Source of the DNA: Halorubrum xinjiangense
GTDB taxonomy: Archaea > Halobacteriota > Halobacteria > Halobacteriales > Haloferacaceae
Reading direction: 5' to 3'
Assembly: GCF_900102375.1 (NCBI RefSeq)
Contig: NZ_FNBO01000012.1
Coordinates: 1-64,000, forward strand
Length of the DNA stretch: 64,000 bases
Position numbers and translations under genes: made by a program. Shown here piece by piece: positions 39,023 to 48,043 of the stretch (the first letter of the stretch is position 1; each line of letters begins with the position of its first letter). The notes under the pieces are model-generated. The model was not told the origin of the DNA. It made no database searches and worked only from the letters and a program-made list of their open reading frames with translations.

Positions 39023-39805
39023 CTATTGGAGCCGCTTCGTCGTCTCGACGAGGGGGTGTCTCGCGTAGTCGACGATCTCGATGTCGCTGACGACGCTGAG
39101 CCCCTCCTTCTCGGCGGTCTTCGCCATCCCGAGATCGACCGTGGTCTGCGGGACGATGACGTACGCGTCCATCGTCTCGATGCCGGCCTCGCGCGCGGCC
39201 ATCGCCCGGTGGTGCCCGTCGGCTAGGTAGAGGGTGCCGCCATTGTCGATGACGACGAGGGGCTCGGCGAGCCCGTGTTCGAGCTCGTACTGGCGCCCTT
39301 CCAGCTCGTCGGCGTACACGCGGGCCTGCGTCGGCGTCAGCTCCGCGATCGCCACCTCGCGGCGCTCCTCGTCGAGGTCGACGCCGTGGATCTGCGAGAG
39401 GGTTCGCATTAGCTTTCCCACCTTACCGGGCGTCGCGCGCTCGATCTGCGAGCGCACGACGTCGGTGTTCGAGATGATCCCGACGAGGTTGTCGGCGTCG
39501 TCGACGACCGGGAGCCGCTGGATGCCCGATCGTAGTATCACCCGCGCGGCGTCGGTCACCTTCATGTCCGGGTGCGCGACGATCAGGTCCTCCGTCATCA
39601 CCGTGAACACGGGCGCGTCGTCGTCCGCAAGCAGGAGGTCCCCGGCCGAGACGAACCCCTCGACGGTGCGGCCCTGCGTCACCGGGAACCCGTTGTGGCC
39701 GTCGCTGTCGGCCATGCGACGCGCGACGGTCGCCACCGTCTCGTCCGGACTGACCGTCTCCACCTCGCGGGTCATGTACTCCCCGACCGTCGGTTTCCCG
39801 CTCAT
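39023..39805 (-). CDS. CBS-pair protein with ParB-like domain
   Basis: 260 residues from ATG 39805. Two CBS motifs (VGEYMTREVETVSPDETVA, VMTEDLIVAHPDMKVTDAA) with NGFPVTQGRTVEGFVS and IQRLPVVDDADNLVGIISNTD are followed by a ParB/Srx-type domain (LEHGLAEPLVVIDNGGTLYLADGHHRAMAAREAG, motif ADGHHRAMA). CBS pairs bind adenosyl ligands; the ParB fold in such proteins may act as a nucleotide-dependent enzyme or DNA-binding unit. This domain pair is conserved in haloarchaea; its function is unknown. Upstream in-frame sequence to 39916 is discarded. Confidence 0.85.
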   Translation of the reverse strand: MSGKPTVGEYMTREVETVSPDETVATVARRMADSDGHNGFPVTQGRTVEGFVSAGDLLLADDDAPVFTVMTEDLIVAHPDMKVTDAARVILRSGIQRLPVVDDADNLVGIISNTDVVRSQIERATPGKVGKLMRTLSQIHGVDLDEERREVAIAELTPTQARVYADELEGRQYELEHGLAEPLVVIDNGGTLYLADGHHRAMAAREAGIETMDAYVIVPQTTVDLGMAKTAEKEGLSVVSDIEIVDYARHPLVETTKRLQ

Positions 39806-40337: not shown

Positions 40338-40465
40338 CGCGAACGACCGGTGACGCGAGATCGCTTCGTCGGGCTCCGTCCCCGCCTCCCGTGCGCTTCG
40401 TCTCTGACTCGACGTGGGTACCACTCATTATCGGGGATTGCGCCCACAGCGGCTAGTGTGTCCGT

Positions 40466-40479
40466 TTGTCGCAGGACAA
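40466..40479. promoter_or_regulatory. Palindrome TTGTC-GCAG-GACAA (operator motif copy 1)
   Basis: A perfect 5+4+5 palindrome between the rhodanese stop (40508) and the winged-helix gene. The same pattern TTGKC-N4-GACAA recurs at 42291, 45482 and 45562, all in intergenic DNA. It is a likely binding site of one regulator. Confidence 0.5.
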
Positions 40480-40507
40480 CTCCGGGGGCGCCGCCGCTCC
40501 GGTGCGC

Positions 40508-41443
40508 CTAGCTGCCGCCGTCCGACTCACCGACTTCGATCGGGACGCCGATCATGTTCCCCCACTCGGTCCAGGAGCCGTCGTAGTGTCGCACGTGTTC
40601 GTATCCGAGCAGCTCCTCGAGGACGAACCACGTGACCGACGACCGCTCGCCGATCCGACAGTAGACGATCACGTCGTCGTTGGGGGTGACCCCTCGGGAC
40701 TCGTACACGTCCGCGAGCTCCTCGTGCGACTTGAACAGGCCGTCGGGGCGGACGTTCTCGGCCCAGAACACGTTTGTCGCTCCCGGGATGTGTCCGCCAC
40801 GCATCGCTCCTTCGTCGCTGCCGGGCGGCTTCGTGACGTCGCCGCGGAACTCCTCGGGCAGGCGCACGTCGACGAACTTCGTGTCGGTACCAATCGCCGC
40901 CCGCACGTCCGTGCGCGCGGCCCGAACCTCCGGTCTGGCCGGCGCGTCGGGCGCGTCGCCGTACGTCACGTCGGGCGGCGCGACCGGCTCCGTCGTGGTC
41001 GGGTAGCCGTGTTCCGTCCAGTACTCTCGGCCGCCGTCCATGATCTTGACGTCCGGGTGGCCGTAGTGGGCGAGCTGCCAGTACAGATGCGCCGCGAACC
41101 AGTTCCTGTTGTCCCCGTAGATGACGACGGTCGTCTCCTCGGTGATCCCACGCGATTCGAGGAAGGCGGTCATCTCCGCCGGGGAGAGGATGTCGTGTGC
41201 CTCCGCCGACCGGAGGTCGGTCCGCCAGTCGACGCCGACGGCGCCGGGCGCGTGCCCCTCCTCGTAAAACGAGGCGTTGACGTCGACTTCGAGCAGCCGC
41301 AGGTCGGTCGCGTCGGAGCCGAACCGGTCGAGCCGGGCGTTCACCCAGTCGGCGCTGACGAGCACGTCCGTCGGGTACCGGCCGCCGGTCGACGCCTCTG
41401 TCGGCTCTCGCTGATCGTCGTCCGTGGGGAGTTCGCCGGTCAT
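40508..41443 (-). CDS. Sulfurtransferase (two-domain rhodanese)
   Basis: 311 residues. The N-terminal inactive rhodanese domain (VLVSADWVNARLD, HAPGAVGVDWRTDL) and the C-terminal active domain (FVDVRLPEEFRGDV, GHIPGATNVFW) with the active-site loop VYCRIGERSS (persulfide Cys). It resembles thiosulfate sulfurtransferases (CRIGERS is typical of the thiosulfate group in archaea and actinobacteria). It moves sulfane sulfur to acceptors such as cyanide or thiols. Its ATG overlaps the stop of the upstream HTH gene (4 nt), so the regulator and enzyme are co-expressed. Confidence 0.9.
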   Translation of the reverse strand: MTGELPTDDDQREPTEASTGGRYPTDVLVSADWVNARLDRFGSDATDLRLLEVDVNASFYEEGHAPGAVGVDWRTDLRSAEAHDILSPAEMTAFLESRGITEETTVVIYGDNRNWFAAHLYWQLAHYGHPDVKIMDGGREYWTEHGYPTTTEPVAPPDVTYGDAPDAPARPEVRAARTDVRAAIGTDTKFVDVRLPEEFRGDVTKPPGSDEGAMRGGHIPGATNVFWAENVRPDGLFKSHEELADVYESRGVTPNDDVIVYCRIGERSSVTWFVLEELLGYEHVRHYDGSWTEWGNMIGVPIEVGESDGGS

Positions 41444-42159
41444 GCTTGTTGGTCCGCGAATCGTTTCGCTAACTCAGCGGTCGCGCGTCGCAGCCGGTAG
41501 GACACCGTCGAGCGGGGCTCTCCGAGCTCCGCCGCGAGCTCGTCGAGCGTCACTCCCCGCGGCGTCTCGAAGTAGCCGCGCTCGACCGCGAGCAGCAGCG
41601 TCTCGCGCTGCTCGGCGGGAACGTCCGGTCGAGAGAGCAGCTCGCTCTCCCAGTGGTCGACCTCGGTCAGGTGTTCGAACGAGAACGACAGCCCGTCGCC
41701 GAGCTTCGCGGCCAGCGTGTCGTACAACAGCCCAATCTTCGAGTCGTCCTGGACCAACACGCGCCACCGGACCGTATCGCCGGACCGCGTCTGCTCGAAG
41801 AGGACGCCCCCGTCGACGTACTTCGCCGTGATCAGCGGCACAGACTCGCAGTAGTCAACGTCGGAGACGTACGTGTACGTCACTCGCCGCCGCTGCTCGT
41901 TGGTCAACAGGCTCGTCGTGCGGTTCGATTGACACTCCCGAGCGCTGATCGACTCGCGGTCGACGGACTCGTCTAAGAGCAGCTCGTCGACGGCGTCGAG
42001 GTCGGCCGCGTCGCCGGTCACCGATTCGAGCTTCCACAGCTCCGTGGGATCGAGACACGAGTAGGTCGCCTCCGACTGGAGGGACTCGCGCTCGATGAAC
42101 AGGTCGACGTACTCGTCGGCGCCGGGTTCGTACGTTATGGTAAACGTGAAGTCGTACAT
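41440..42159 (-). CDS. Bat-type HTH_10 transcription regulator
   Basis: 239 residues from ATG 42159. The N-terminal 180 residues form the Bat-like beta-rich domain (YDFTFTITYEPGADEYVDLFIERESLQSEATYSCLDP) with three cysteines (35, 76, 104) that could sense redox or sulfur compounds. The C-terminal HTH_10 (EQRETLLLAVERGYFETPRG, TLDELAAELGEPRSTVSYRLRRA) resembles haloarchaeal sulfur- and DMSO-responsive regulators of this family. The gene overlaps the sulfurtransferase. This makes control of sulfur metabolism or respiration a good hypothesis. A long in-frame extension upstream is basic shadow sequence. Confidence 0.82.
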   Translation of the reverse strand: MYDFTFTITYEPGADEYVDLFIERESLQSEATYSCLDPTELWKLESVTGDAADLDAVDELLLDESVDRESISARECQSNRTTSLLTNEQRRRVTYTYVSDVDYCESVPLITAKYVDGGVLFEQTRSGDTVRWRVLVQDDSKIGLLYDTLAAKLGDGLSFSFEHLTEVDHWESELLSRPDVPAEQRETLLLAVERGYFETPRGVTLDELAAELGEPRSTVSYRLRRATAELAKRFADQQA

Positions 42160-42290
42160 CTGACGGTGAACTCGTTCGTTTCTTCTGTCTCGGTTCGCGG
42201 CTTCCGCCTCGCGCTCGGCCGAGCCGTCGGGTTCGGCCGAACGGCCGCAGTCGGCCGAGCGGTCGCGGTCGACCGCGCTTCGGCCGGAAG

Positions 42291-42304
42291 TTGGCCCTCG
42301 ACAA
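42291..42304. promoter_or_regulatory. Palindrome TTGGC-CCTC-GACAA (operator motif copy 2)
   Basis: One mismatch from the perfect TTGTC/GACAA palindrome. It is placed between the divergent HTH_10 gene (start 42159) and the small membrane protein gene (start 42344), so it could control both. Confidence 0.45.
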
Positions 42305-42343
42305 CGCGTCTGATATGGGTTCGACGCACTTACGTTGCCTCGT

Positions 42344-42583
42344 ATGGTGCGCTCACGTTCGACTCGTGAAACCCCGACCGCGCTCCGAAGTCGTCTCCTG
42401 ATACCCGCGTTTGTCGCGCTCGTCGCCGGAGTCGGGGGAGTCGCCTTCGGACTCACCCACGACGACGCCGTCACCGCGCTGGGCGCGCTCTTGTTCCTGC
42501 CAAGCGCCGCGCTGCTGTTCGGCATCGTCGCCAAGCGCCACGGAATCGGACCCGTCAGCCCGTCACGTCGGCGATCGAACTGA
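42344..42583 (+). CDS. Small two-helix membrane protein, unknown
   Basis: 79 residues from ATG 42344. Two hydrophobic helices (LLIPAFVALVAGVGGVAFGL and AVTALGALLFLPSAALLFGIVA) joined by an acidic loop THDD, with basic ends (RSRSTRETPTALRSR, KRHGIGPVSPSRRRSN). It is divergent from the HTH_10-rhodanese operon, with operator motif copy 2 40 nt upstream of its start. Family not recognised. Confidence 0.55.
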   Translation: MVRSRSTRETPTALRSRLLIPAFVALVAGVGGVAFGLTHDDAVTALGALLFLPSAALLFGIVAKRHGIGPVSPSRRRSN

Positions 42584-42716
42584 CGATCTACGCGTCGGCG
42601 AGCGGACTGCTGTCCGGCGCGTCGCCGCCCCGCTGCCCTCGGTCTGCGGCCCACGGCCGGGAACCGTCCGGTCCCCGCCGGCCGGTCCCGCTGGGGCCTC
42701 TCGGGAGGCGCTCGGC

Positions 42717-42962
42717 TCACGTCGCCTCCCGAACGCGGGCGGCGACGAGCCGGTCGACGTTGTACATGAACACGGCGACCGCGGCCAGGACCGTCGCGAA
42801 GTAGACGACGAGCTGCGGCGGCCCCGACGCAGCGCCGCCCGCGACGGCCCCGCCAAACCCGACGACGGTGAGCTCCGCCCACGTGATGAGTACGCGCGAG
42901 AGCAGTAGCGTTCCGACCGGCGACCGCCGACTCGGCTCGTTCGCCGCTGGATCGTCGCTCAT
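42717..42962 (-). CDS. Small membrane protein in the cyd operon
   Basis: 81 residues from ATG 42962. A short acidic start and two hydrophobic helices (LLLSRVLITWAELTVVGFGGAVAGG; PQLVVYFATVLAAVAVFMYNVDRLVAA). It starts one base after the cydB stop, in the position of the CydX/CydX-like small subunits that stabilise cytochrome bd in bacteria. It is longer than bacterial CydX (about 37 residues) and has no clear sequence match, so a role as a bd-oxidase partner is inference from position. Confidence 0.65.
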   Translation of the reverse strand: MSDDPAANEPSRRSPVGTLLLSRVLITWAELTVVGFGGAVAGGAASGPPQLVVYFATVLAAVAVFMYNVDRLVAARVREAT

Positions 42963-42963
42963 C

Positions 42964-43968
42964 TCAGTACGCCTCCTCGGCCGAGATCGGTCCACTGAAC
43001 GCCGAGTACAGGACGGCGAAGTACGTGGCGATCAGCGGCAACAGCAGCGCCGCGCCGATCGACATGAGGTTCAGCGGCAACGTCGAGACGACGGCGTCCC
43101 TCACCGTCGCCCCCGTCGCCGGGTCGATACGCGGATACATGAGGATCGCGACCACCGCGATCAGCCCGTACGTCAGTCCCGCGGCCGCCGCGAGCGCGGC
43201 GACGTTCGCCCCGCGTCGAAGCGCGACGGCGTAGCCGACGCCGAGCGCGACGGAGGCGGCGACCAGCGCGATCACCGGGGGCGACAGCAGCGCGTCGACG
43301 CCGGCCGGGAGCCGGGCCGTCAGGACGCCGAGGGTCGCGACGACGGCGAGGAGGTACGCCGCGACGGCCTCGACTCCGAGCCGGGTCACCGTTTTGGGAA
43401 GCGCGTCTCGGGCTTTCAGCCGAAGGAACGCGGCGCCGGAAACGACGGTCAGCGCCGTGACGGTGACGCCCGTGACGACGCCGACGAGCGTGAACGAACG
43501 GGGGGTCCCGACGAGCCAGTTGCCCGCGAACGCGCCGAGGAGGAACGGCGCGAGGACGCTGCCGGCGACGAACGACCGTCCCCACCACCGCTGCCAGCGC
43601 TCGTCGTGGCGCTGTTCGTACATCTCCGGCGCCAGCCCCCGGAGGATGAGGGCGCCGAGGATGCCGAACATCAGCAGGTAGTGTCGGCTGAACAGCCCCG
43701 CGTACACCGACGGGAAGGCGGCGAACAGCGCGCCGCCGAAGACGACGAGCCACACCTCGTTCCCGTCCCAGAACGGCCCGATCGCGGACAGCACCGCCTC
43801 GCGCGCCTCGTCTTCGCGAAGCGTCGCGAAGATCGCGCCGGCGCCGAAGTCGAAGCCGTCGAGGAACAGGAACGTTCCGAGGATCGCGAACACCAGCGCG
43901 AACCACAGCTCCGGGAGCGGCAGGCCGAACACCGGGCCCGCCGCGAGCGCGTCGACGGCGCTAGTCAT
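42964..43968 (-). CDS. cydB: Cytochrome bd ubiquinol/menaquinol oxidase subunit II
   Basis: 334 residues with about eight membrane helices. The N-terminus has the conserved FLFLDGFDFGAGAIF, then SAIGPFWDGNEVWLVVFGGALFAAFPSVYAGLFSRHY and ILGALILRGLAPEMYE, all typical of CydB. The C-terminus is TYFAVLYSAFSGPISAEEAY. It is the partner of CydA in a high-affinity quinol:O2 oxidase. The start overlaps the cydA stop by 8 nt. The operon order is cydA-cydB-small membrane protein. Confidence 0.94.
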   Translation of the reverse strand: MTSAVDALAAGPVFGLPLPELWFALVFAILGTFLFLDGFDFGAGAIFATLREDEAREAVLSAIGPFWDGNEVWLVVFGGALFAAFPSVYAGLFSRHYLLMFGILGALILRGLAPEMYEQRHDERWQRWWGRSFVAGSVLAPFLLGAFAGNWLVGTPRSFTLVGVVTGVTVTALTVVSGAAFLRLKARDALPKTVTRLGVEAVAAYLLAVVATLGVLTARLPAGVDALLSPPVIALVAASVALGVGYAVALRRGANVAALAAAAGLTYGLIAVVAILMYPRIDPATGATVRDAVVSTLPLNLMSIGAALLLPLIATYFAVLYSAFSGPISAEEAY

Positions 43969-45385
43969 CGCCGGGCACCTCCGCGGGCGCGGCGTCGCGC
44001 TCGGCGGGGGAGTCCGACGGGCGCACGCTCGGAGGCCCCTCCCGGATCACTCGCGCGACGACGTACGTGTACAGCGCGAGGATGCCAGCGTAGACGCCGA
44101 CGAACCCCGCGAGCGTGACCATCGCTTCCGTCCCGGTGAGGCCGGGAGAGACCCCCTCGCTCGTCTTCAACACGCCCTGGATCACCCAGGGCTGGCGGCC
44201 GACCTCCGTGACGACCCACCCGAGCTCGACCGCGACCACGCCGAGCAGGCTGGACGCCATCAGCGCCTTGTGGAGCAGTCCGTCCTCGAACAGCTCGCCC
44301 GTGTACCACCGGTAGCCGCCCCAGAACGCGAGCAGGATGAACCAAAAGCCCATCCCGACCATCGCGCGGAACGACCAGAACACGATGGCGACAGGCGGCG
44401 CCTCCGTGTCGAACGTGTTCAGGCCGCGTATCTCCGCGGTCGCGTCGCCCCCGCTGGCGAGCCACGACGCCCCGCCCGGGATGCCGATGCCGAACAGCTC
44501 CTTCGCGCGGGGGTCGGTGAACTGGCCCAGATCGGTCGGAATCGCGAAGATGTACTCCGGGACGTACGCCTCGGTGTCCCAGACCGCCTCCATGGCGGCG
44601 AACTTCTGCGGTTGCGTCTCGTAGACGTGACGCGCGTACAGGTCGCCCTGGAGCACCTGTAACGGGGCCGTGATGAGCAGCGCGACCAGCGCAATCTTGA
44701 GCGTCTTCTGCCAGAAGACGATGTTCTTCGTCTGGTGCCCCCAGACGTGGTGTCGGTAGACGTAGTACGCGGAGACGCCGGCCATGAACAGCGCCACCGA
44801 CTCGACCGCGGCGTTTTGCATGTGGACGTACATGTACCCGAACCGCGGAGTCAGGTACGCCGCGACCGGATCGACGAGGTGGACCACCTCCTGTCCGTCC
44901 TCGGTGACGAGCTCGTAGCCGCGCGGCATCTGCATCCACGAGTTCGCGATGAGGATCCAGACGGCGGAGAGCCACGTTCCGACGCCGACGGCGAGGCTTG
45001 AGACCATGTAGAGCCGGTCGGAGACGCGCTCGCGACCGAACACGAAGATGCCGAGGAACGTCGCCTCCAGCATGAACGCCATCATCCCCTCGACGGCGAG
45101 CGGGCCGCCGAACAGCTCTCCGGCGGTGGTCGAGAACGCCGCGAAGTTGGTCCCGAACTCGAACTCGAGGACGATACCGGTGACCGTCCCGACGACGAAC
45201 GAGATAGCGAAGATCTTGGTCCAGAAGCGACGCAACTGCTCGTACACCGGATCGCCGCCCCGGACATCCTTCCACGTGAAGTAGATCAGGAACGGCGCCA
45301 GCCCCATGCTCATCACCGGGAAGATGATGTGGACGATCGTCGTCAGGGCGAACTGGAATCGGCTTGCGAGTACTGGGTCGATCAT
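43961..45385 (-). CDS. cydA: Cytochrome bd oxidase subunit I
   Basis: 474 residues, nine-helix heme subunit. The N-terminus MIDPVLASRFQFALTTIVHI contains His19, the heme b595 ligand; YVHMQNAAVESVALFMAGVS contains the heme b558 His; and the Met ligand region lies in FRAMVGMGFWFILL. The GRQPW motif (VTEVGRQPWVIQG) is conserved. The Q-loop is short, as in non-enterobacterial CydA. It reduces O2 to water with quinol at very low O2. Two operator motifs (45482-45575) lie upstream of the start. Expression under low oxygen or sulfur stress is likely but not shown. Confidence 0.95.
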   Translation of the reverse strand: MIDPVLASRFQFALTTIVHIIFPVMSMGLAPFLIYFTWKDVRGGDPVYEQLRRFWTKIFAISFVVGTVTGIVLEFEFGTNFAAFSTTAGELFGGPLAVEGMMAFMLEATFLGIFVFGRERVSDRLYMVSSLAVGVGTWLSAVWILIANSWMQMPRGYELVTEDGQEVVHLVDPVAAYLTPRFGYMYVHMQNAAVESVALFMAGVSAYYVYRHHVWGHQTKNIVFWQKTLKIALVALLITAPLQVLQGDLYARHVYETQPQKFAAMEAVWDTEAYVPEYIFAIPTDLGQFTDPRAKELFGIGIPGGASWLASGGDATAEIRGLNTFDTEAPPVAIVFWSFRAMVGMGFWFILLAFWGGYRWYTGELFEDGLLHKALMASSLLGVVAVELGWVVTEVGRQPWVIQGVLKTSEGVSPGLTGTEAMVTLAGFVGVYAGILALYTYVVARVIREGPPSVRPSDSPAERDAAPAEVPGDD

Positions 45386-45481
45386 GTTGTGGTGAGTGGC
45401 TGCGTCGGAGGGTCACTCCGCCGTGCGCCGCGGTCGATCGCTGTGTCTGACGCTGAGCACTCCTCCTCCATAACCCCGGAG

Positions 45482-45575
45482 TTGGCACAGGACAAGCGTC
45501 GGTCGAGTGCCGCCGTTACCCGGCGTCGAGGCAGCGAGGCCTCGACGAGGCGCTCCGGTAGTTGTCCTGCGCCAA
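45482..45575. promoter_or_regulatory. Two inverted operator motifs between cydA and a small gene
   Basis: TTGGCACAGGACAA (45482-45495) and, in reverse, TTGTCCTGCGCCAA (45562-45575) form a 14-nt inverted repeat (13 of 14 pair) separated by 66 nt. Both fit TTGKC-N4-GACAA. They flank the divergent promoters of cydAB (start 45385) and the small membrane protein gene (45613). DNA looping between two dimers of one regulator is possible. Confidence 0.55.
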
Positions 45576-45612
45576 CCCATCTCTTTGGTGGCCGAAGCGA
45601 TTGCGTTCGCTC

Positions 45613-45902: not shown

Positions 45903-46121
45903 TCAAGACTCCTCCGCGGACTCGTCACGTCCGTCTCCCTCGTCGCTCCGTTCCCCGGCGCGGAGCCGTTCGGCGACCCTGTGCCGAAGGCGATCGAAGG
46001 GCCGCGAACAGGCGCCGCACTCGGCACAGGAGACGTCCGCACAGGAGAGCGAGGCGCCACAGCGCGGACACGAGAGCCCGTTCGCCGGGTCGAACTCGTA
46101 CTCGCAGCGCGGACAGATCAC
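45903..46121 (-). CDS. Small double zinc-ribbon protein encoded after feoB
   Basis: 72 residues from a GTG that overlaps the feoB stop (GTGA). It reads ICPRCEYEFDPANGLSCPRCG, then SCADVSCAECGACSRPF: four CxxC-type pairs, enough for two zinc or iron-sulfur sites, with a helical basic-acidic tail. In bacteria a short Cys-rich protein (FeoC, or the FeoB-associated Cys-rich membrane protein) often follows feoB; this soluble ribbon takes that place here. It may bind iron or regulate FeoB. It is too short and too coupled to be a chance frame. Confidence 0.75.
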   Translation of the reverse strand: MICPRCEYEFDPANGLSCPRCGASLSCADVSCAECGACSRPFDRLRHRVAERLRAGERSDEGDGRDESAEES

Positions 46122-48043
46122 GCGATCACCTCCAGCGCGGCCGCGACGACCCCGCCGACGGTAAACGCCGTGACCCAAGAGCCGACCCACACGAGGAGCG
46201 CGCTCCGCGCGTCGCGCTCCCTGAGTATTACCGCCATCGTGAGGATACAGGGCACGAACAGCGTGACGACGATCAGCCCCACGAATGTCTGTGACGCCGA
46301 CAGCGTCGCGTCGGTCATCCCGGCGGCGGCGAAGTCGCGCCGGATCAGCCCCAAGACGAGCACCTGCCCGAACGACGCCGGTAAGCCGAGCGCCGCGGTC
46401 AGCGGCCGAAGGGCCTCGACTATCGCGTCCAGCGCTCCGACGTAGTCGAGCGTCGACACCGCGGCTGCGGTCGCCCCGAACAGGGGGACCGCCTCCCTGA
46501 GGAACGCGGCGCTCCGGTTTGCCGTCTTTCGAGCGACGTTCCCCGGGCGAGGGACGCGCAGCCGCGGCAGCTGCTCGATCAACGGGTCCTGTCGACCGGG
46601 GAGCGCCCGGTCGAGGAAGACGCCGGCGACCCCGAGGACCCCGAGCAGCACCGCAAGGTAGCCGCCCCACCAGGCAACGCCAAGCCCGGCCAGCAACCCC
46701 ATGATGACGCCGATCTGCGCCGAGCAGGGGATCGCGAGCCCCAGCAGCGCTGTTGTGATGAGCCGCTCCCGACGTGACCCCACCATTCGGGTCGAGATGA
46801 CCGCCATCGTCACACATCCTACGCCGACGATAAGCGGGACGACCGCGCGGCCGTTGAGACCGATCCGGTTGAGTCCCCTGTCAGTCAAGACGGCCAGTCG
46901 CGGCAGCAGGCCGGCGTCCTCGAGTGTCCCGATCACGAGGTAGAACGCGATCACGAGCGGGAGCAGGACACCGAGAACGTACTGGACGGTGATGGTCACC
47001 AGCCCCAAGTTGTCGTTGACGAGCAGGAACTCGACTGGAGCGGCCCACTCGCTCGCCGGGAGCAGGTCCGCGACGGCCGTCTCGACCGCGGGATTGTAGT
47101 ACCGGCCGAAGAACACCCCCTCTGCGTAACCGACGACTCGCTGCGCGACGATCACCCCCATGAGGTAGAAGACCGTGGCGAGGAGTCCGATCGCGATCGG
47201 GACCCCGGTCACCGGCCGCATCAGCAGGTCGCCGAGCCGCTGCCCGGCGGCCCGCCCGGAGCCGGTGTCCCGTTCCACCGCGTCGACGATCGATCGGACC
47301 CGATTCCGACGCTCGCGGTACACCGCCTCTCGATCTTCCACGTTGGCGAGCGGCCCGTCCCCCCCGTCGGCCACGAGGCCGCGGGCGCCGACGCGGCGGG
47401 CCGTTGGTTCGTCGCCCTCGACGAGGAGGGTCTTCTCTGCCCGGCTGGCCTCGACTGCGTCGGGAAGCGCGTCGTAGTGTGAGTCGACGGGCGTCGACGC
47501 GGGGGCGGACGCCTCTGGGAGCCGCTCCCGGAGTTCGTCGACGCCCGACCCGGTGACGGCGACGGTCGGTACGACCGGGACGCCGAGGGCCACCTCCAGG
47601 GCGTCGACGTCCACCTCGACGCCGTCCGCCTCGAGTTCGTCCATCATGTTCAACGCGACGACCGTCGGAACGCCCATGTCCAGAATCTGTAGGGTCACGA
47701 ACAGGTCCCGGTCGAGTCGCGTGGCGTCGATGACGTTTACGACTGCGTCCGCCTCGAGGACAGTTTCTCGGGTGACCCGTTCCTCCTCGGAGAACGACGA
47801 GATACCGTGAACCCCGGGAGTGTCGGTCAGGCGAGTCGGGCCGACGGTCACCGCGGTCGTCTCGACCGTGGTGCCGGGGTAGTTCGAGACGTCGGCGTAC
47901 TCGGCCGTGAGCCTGCCGAAAAGCACACTCTTGCCCGCGTTTGGGGCGCCCACTAGCGCCACCTCGGTGTGGCCGAGACCGGGTCCGCCCGCCGTCCCCT
48001 CGTTCGCCGCCTCATCGTTCACCGCCTCGCCGTTCGCCGTCAT
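46118..48043 (-). CDS. feoB: Ferrous iron transporter B
   Basis: 641 residues. N-terminal G domain with G1 ALVGAPNAGKSVLFGRLT, G2 region NYPGTTVETTA, G3 LTDTPGVHGISSFSEEE and G4 ALNMMDE (NMMD). A helical linker is followed by the membrane part with Gate motifs (VPLIVGVGCVTMAVISTRM and AIPCSAQIGVIMG with the Cys of the iron path) and FVPCILTMAVILRERD near the end. It moves Fe(II) across the cytoplasmic membrane. The start overlaps the feoA stop (ATGA), and the stop overlaps the zinc-ribbon gene. Confidence 0.94.
   Translation of the reverse strand: MTANGEAVNDEAANEGTAGGPGLGHTEVALVGAPNAGKSVLFGRLTAEYADVSNYPGTTVETTAVTVGPTRLTDTPGVHGISSFSEEERVTRETVLEADAVVNVIDATRLDRDLFVTLQILDMGVPTVVALNMMDELEADGVEVDVDALEVALGVPVVPTVAVTGSGVDELRERLPEASAPASTPVDSHYDALPDAVEASRAEKTLLVEGDEPTARRVGARGLVADGGDGPLANVEDREAVYRERRNRVRSIVDAVERDTGSGRAAGQRLGDLLMRPVTGVPIAIGLLATVFYLMGVIVAQRVVGYAEGVFFGRYYNPAVETAVADLLPASEWAAPVEFLLVNDNLGLVTITVQYVLGVLLPLVIAFYLVIGTLEDAGLLPRLAVLTDRGLNRIGLNGRAVVPLIVGVGCVTMAVISTRMVGSRRERLITTALLGLAIPCSAQIGVIMGLLAGLGVAWWGGYLAVLLGVLGVAGVFLDRALPGRQDPLIEQLPRLRVPRPGNVARKTANRSAAFLREAVPLFGATAAAVSTLDYVGALDAIVEALRPLTAALGLPASFGQVLVLGLIRRDFAAAGMTDATLSASQTFVGLIVVTLFVPCILTMAVILRERDARSALLVWVGSWVTAFTVGGVVAAALEVIA

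Follow-up and report, generated by a model that had tools for sequence, protein, structure and literature searches.

A candidate operator palindrome near cydAB, small membrane protein genes and an HTH_10 regulator gene in Halorubrum xinjiangense and other haloarchaea

Related regulators and operators

HTH_10 proteins form an abundant haloarchaeal regulator family, most members of which are uncharacterised. The candidate regulator considered here shares the HTH_10 DNA-binding domain with Bat and DmsR, the activators of bop and of DMSO respiration, respectively, and, like NarO and DmsR (PMC11218638) but unlike Bat, it lacks PAS and GAF domains (no Pfam match). It differs from Bat and DmsR in its targets and in an HVO_2928_N domain, which is not described in the cited Bat and DmsR literature. 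For the haloarchaeal denitrification motif CGAA-N4-TTCG (CGAAYATDKTYG), mutation lowers the activity of the nor and nosZ promoters (PMC10062603), and its regulator is not settled in the cited literature (PMC10062603; PMC11218638). The palindrome TTGKC-N4-GACAA resembles the denitrification motif and NarO system in being an inverted repeat with a 4-base spacer upstream of the promoter, and it likewise occurs in several copies in one cluster, in which a Bat-like HTH_10 regulator is encoded as well (PMC10062603; PMC11218638). However, the half-site is TTGKC rather than CGAA, so that only the 4-base spacing is common to both, and cyd and sulfur genes take the place of the denitrification genes of the NarO-type regulon. 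The system appears to resemble the Bat, NarO and DmsR regulators in its way of working, but with an operator and a regulon of its own.

SqrR is a bacterial repressor of the ArsR family. With SqrR/BigR, FisR and CstR, all bacterial persulfide sensors, the system would share the control of SQR and rhodanese genes, and the two conserved cysteines of SqrR (PMC9995734) have a counterpart in Cys76 and Cys104 of most proteins with a serine in the recognition helix (Ser-type, see below). The predicted regulon has a SqrR-like content in relatives (SQR, sulfurtransferases), and in the H. xinjiangense genome the rhodanese only. Unlike SqrR/BigR, the candidate belongs to the archaeal HTH_10 proteins, and its Pfam hits include no ArsR (HTH_5) domain; with its predicted sulfur sensing, the system would parallel SqrR functionally and not be a member of the SqrR family. 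No haloarchaeal regulator of sulfide or reactive sulfur was found described in the open-access full-text literature searched, which makes the HTH_10 protein a candidate for such a sensor in archaea. For one HTH_10 subfamily, the analysis moreover supplies a candidate operator together with its promoter geometry and predicted regulon, and a protein-DNA specificity code open to testing.

The palindrome and its gene cluster

The window, a 64-kb stretch of the H. xinjiangense genome, was scanned for exact matches to TTGKC-N4-GACAA, and these occurred solely at the four sites listed in Table 1. The scan thereby reproduced all four palindromes that the first-pass annotation had reported, and agreed with its impression by eye that the window holds no further site. 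Dinucleotide shuffles gave an expectation of 0.09 matches in the window, with a largest value of 2. In the whole genome (3,261,379 bases), the exact pattern had 5 places, 4 of them in the cluster and the fifth (C5:135198) within a coding frame, compared to 11 places for a reversed control pattern. The looser pattern TTGNC-N4-GNCAA had 11 genomic places, again with 4 in the cluster. Isolated single matches, several of them intragenic, occur in other haloarchaeal genomes, as would be expected if the palindromes were chance or non-regulatory repeats. This explanation has a negligible probability, as about 0.007 sites are expected in the 5.1-kb span (Poisson P for at least four, about 1e-10) and as all conservation controls described below contradict it.

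Table 1. Features of the cyd-rhodanese cluster (coordinates refer to the window)
Feature	Coordinates	Strand	Details
Candidate operator site 1	40466..40479	-	TTGTCCTGCGACAA read towards the winged-helix gene
Candidate operator site 2	42291..42304	+	TTGGCCCTCGACAA, between HTH_10 and smp1; smp1 start codon 39 nt downstream
Candidate operator site 3	45482..45495	-	TTGTCCTGTGCCAA read towards cydA
Candidate operator site 4	45562..45575	+	TTGTCCTGCGCCAA read towards smp3; smp3 start codon 37 nt downstream
TATA-like position, site 1	40454..40457	-	+9 to +12 after site
TATA-like position, site 2	42313..42316	+	+9 to +12 after site, gATATgg
TATA-like position, site 3	45470..45473	-	+9 to +12 after site, ggTTATgg
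TATA-like position, site 4	45584..45587	+	+9 to +12 after site, cTTTGg
Winged-helix (HTH_20) protein, 121 aa	39972..40337	-	Pfam and relatives; probable target and secondary regulator
Possible leaderless leader ORF, 32 aa	40330..40428	-	begins 37 nt downstream of site 1
Two-domain rhodanese, thiosulfate/3-mercaptopyruvate sulfurtransferase family	40508..41443	-	operon with HTH_10; 1uar, E 8e-83
Candidate regulator, HVO_2928_N + HTH_10, 239 aa	41440..42159	-	Pfam, alignments, tree, model pLDDT 80
smp1, small membrane protein, 79 aa	42344..42583	+	ORF, kept in relatives
Third cydAB-operon gene, membrane protein, 81 aa	42717..42962	-	ORF, relatives
cydB	42964..43968	-	family profile match
cydA	43961..45385	-	family profile match
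smp3, small membrane protein, 59 aa	45613..45792	+	ORF, kept in relatives

The gene context given earlier was correct: the HTH_10 gene overlaps the rhodanese gene, cydA overlaps cydB and the small genes are divergent, and the HTH_10 protein indeed carries cysteines at positions 35, 76 and 104. Neither smp1 nor smp3 had a Pfam or NCBIfam match. When each of the four sites is read towards its gene, the TATA-like elements at +9 to +12 are weak, and no clear TATA was found reading site 2 towards the rhodanese operon. Site 1 is conserved in L006, L053, L069, L116-L119 and others; the stop codon of the possible leader ORF following it overlaps the start of the winged-helix gene (ATGAGTGA), and the spacing between site and leader ORF is kept in most relatives that have the winged-helix gene.

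Two further conserved neighbourhoods were observed. The winged-helix gene is followed by a CBS-domain/ParB-like gene (39023-39805), which shows 96-98% conservation in those Halorubrum relatives that have the cluster. On the other side, smp3 is adjoined by a small zinc-ribbon gene (45903-46121) and a gene for a FeoB-type ferrous iron transporter (46118-48043), an arrangement kept in several Halorubrum relatives (L006, L008, L009, L053).

Conservation, promoter geometry and the probable binding protein

Conservation was assessed in 16-kb stretches around HTH_10 homologs of other haloarchaea and in named cyd loci. Together, these stretches and loci contained 156 sites, of which 154 were located outside called genes; a simple gene caller left 25% of these loci uncalled, so that the intergenic excess, although large, is not calibrated with precision. 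A frequency in coding DNA as high as in promoters, named earlier as an argument against regulation, was thus not observed. The reversed control pattern had 5 matches in the same stretches, any spacer other than N4 gave 0-4 instead of 156 matches, and exact TTGTC palindromes occurred 81 times, whereas no permuted arm exceeded 4. The operator pattern, its geometry and conservation and its linkage to an HTH_10 subfamily are directly computed, and the predicted regulon, as judged from these genomes, extends well beyond that of H. xinjiangense.

Far from HTH_10 genes, many perfect sites in other genomes were intragenic or beside unrelated genes; two plausible ones, both in G011, precede a peroxiredoxin gene and a TusA/SQR unit. 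A search with the composite pattern TTGTC-N4-GACAAC-N{0,12}-CTA, which was badly chosen, yielded background sites beside unrelated genes. One contig of G011 carries two copies of the complete HTH_10/cyd cluster, sites included (L123 and L155; C2:23000-39000 and 431500-447500), possibly due to a duplication or an assembly effect.

The distance from site to start codon peaked at 36-41 nt. In the leaderless class, whose start codons lie 34-42 nt beyond the site (n=47), position +11 was invariably A or T, and a second A/T peak appeared at +27/+28. In L013 and L075, the divergent cydA and smp3 promoters share one palindrome. A fixed site position upstream of a TATA-like element is typical of archaeal activators. 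By this promoter logic, the placement of the site immediately before the BRE/TATA region is more readily reconciled with activation than with repression. An HTH_10 protein acting as a SqrR-like repressor that is released by the signal would have precedent in bacterial persulfide sensors such as SqrR, which repress (PMC9995734). We nevertheless regard such a repressor as improbable, as the fixed spacing upstream of BRE/TATA together with weak TATA boxes is the arrangement of an activator, and as site and HTH_10 gene are lost together.

This joint loss was apparent in a set of 80 cydA loci, in which an HTH_10 homolog was counted at an identity of at least 38% and a site when it lay no more than 300 nt upstream of cydA. 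The site was found at 9 of the 11 loci with the HTH_10 gene vs 3 of the 69 without. Of these three, L009 and L013 are short contigs whose ends fall close to the cluster. For the third, L075, an HTH_10 homolog (L176) is located on a contig as long as the L075 plasmid (247,600 bases) with matching coordinates, suggesting that the HTH_10 gene probably lies near the L075 cluster on the same plasmid. In cyd/smp1/smp3 clusters lacking both HTH_10 and rhodanese genes (several Halorubrum and Halonotius relatives), the site was absent.

Since cydAB clusters without the HTH_10 gene have no site, and since many genomes with HTH_10 gene and sites have no winged-helix gene, the HTH_10 protein is the likely binder of the palindromes. 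Of the two regulator candidates named in the first-pass annotation, the HTH_10 protein is therefore favoured and the winged-helix protein is not. Binding by the latter, possibly as a repressor, would agree with the presence of a site at the winged-helix gene and with the confinement of close winged-helix orthologs to HTH_10-positive genomes; an unlinked protein could also be the binder. However, G127, G011, G086, G088 and G089, which have both HTH_10 genes and sites, encode only remote paralogs of the winged-helix protein, and the sites precede the TATA element instead of covering it, making binding by the winged-helix protein very improbable. Given the many site-bearing, HTH_10-positive genomes that lack an ortholog, the winged-helix gene rather looks like a target.

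In the candidate HTH_10 regulator, residues 3-170 match HVO_2928_N (PF24281, E 1.3e-62) and the C-terminus matches HTH_10 (PF04967, 52.2 bits at a cutoff of 23.1). A fold search showed a resemblance of the C-terminal part to sigma region 4 and returned no informative relative for the N-terminal domain (best 5m86, TM 0.45 on the query). Homologs of 40-65% identity have sites nearby, and those of 35-40% mostly have none. The recognition helix reads PRSTVSYRLRR and includes Ser220; this serine (PRST[V/L]SYRLR) is present in 53 of 55 motif-positive HTH_10 proteins, and 12 of 17 motif-negative relatives have a glutamine (ST[V/L]QYRL). The Ser-type homologs L134, L174, L197, L200 and L212 had no strict site nearby. 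At 6 of 14 Gln-type loci, 10 sites of the form TTGGT-N4-ACCAA were detected and none with other spacers, whereas the Ser-type loci, with four times the amount of DNA, had 1 such site. In the reciprocal search, however, an HTH_10 gene was near only 2 of 30 TTGGT-N4-ACCAA sites, one of them Ser-type, so that a TTGGT code for the Gln-type is only suggestive. In addition, the Gln group is nearly one clade on the tree, and the correlation between residue and site therefore represents one correlated change rather than many independent trials. That the proteins constitute an archaeal family of sulfide/persulfide activators on the Bat-type HTH_10 fold, in which Ser220 pairs with TTGKC and glutamine with TTGGT half-sites, is accordingly put forward tentatively, at slightly below even confidence. 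Six Gln-type relatives (L148, L187, L192, L204, L205, L209) carry TTGGT-N4-ACCAA at or near their own promoters, and mostly have five cysteines (34, 67, 70, 76, 104).

Predicted target genes, probable inducing signal and proposed mechanism

In relatives, the site precedes SQR units (matched by phmmer to structures of human SQOR at E 5e-55) and further sulfur-related genes, encoding TusA, rhodanese, rhodanese-metallo-beta-lactamase, CoA-disulfide-reductase-like and SBP56 proteins, the last belonging to the methanethiol oxidase family (PMC5739008). Other targets are YeiH-like, heme-copper oxidase, ferritin-like and NosL genes. The sole obvious sulfur enzyme under the sites in the H. xinjiangense genome is the rhodanese; an SQR homolog (36% identity) is encoded elsewhere (G000:C10:51091-52176, L233) without an exact site. 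From the targets conserved across relatives, our best guess for the inducing signal is sulfide or reactive sulfur (persulfide, polysulfide, thiols).

The main rival is a low-oxygen or redox signal acting through the same operator and HTH_10 activator, with the sulfur genes being passengers of microoxic life. NarO and DmsR, family members for which such a signal is reported, are activators of anaerobic respiration (PMC11218638). The targets often include cyd and heme-copper oxidase genes, and the oxidase, ferritin-like and NosL genes would also fit low-oxygen or metal signals. Nevertheless, the presence of SQR, TusA, rhodanese-metallo-beta-lactamase, CoA-disulfide reductase and SBP56 among the targets argues against low oxygen, as does the lack, in Ser-type proteins, of the extra Cys34/67/70 set of the Gln-type relatives, and we consider this signal unlikely, if less so than the other alternatives.

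Cys76 and Cys104 occur together in 49 of 58 Ser-type proteins. In an SBP56-linked group of regulators (n=7), Cys76 is kept and Cys104 lost in 6, and L154 lacks both; a two-cysteine switch is therefore not universal, and the loss of Cys104 suggests that sensing chemistry may differ in this subfamily. Its members (L145-L147, L149, L151, L153, L154; 37-43% identity) are encoded divergently from the SBP56 gene, with one shared site.

Taken together, the palindromes are probably operators of the HTH_10 protein, which would be an activator of the cyd, small membrane protein and winged-helix genes and probably respond to sulfide or reactive sulfur. The earlier proposal of one control circuit is upheld by the rarity and conservation of the site, the spacer and arm controls, the promoter geometry and the loss of sites where HTH_10 is missing. 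Binding, dimer formation, activation rather than repression and the signal are what we infer in the following model. The HTH_10 protein would bind TTGKC-N4-GMCAA as a symmetric dimer, whose two subunits each contact one of the half-sites, spaced about 10 bp from each other, and, bound just upstream of a weak TATA/BRE, may recruit TBP/TFB. It would sense sulfide or reactive sulfur via Cys76 and Cys104 and activate cydABX along with the genes for the small membrane proteins and the winged-helix protein, and perhaps the rhodanese operon to which its own gene belongs. Escherichia coli cytochrome bd is insensitive to sulfide and sustains sulfide-resistant respiration (PMC4815019); a sulfide-tolerant bd oxidase may similarly maintain respiration, and sulfurtransferases, in relatives also SQR, TusA and the rhodanese-metallo-beta-lactamase protein, would dispose of the sulfur.
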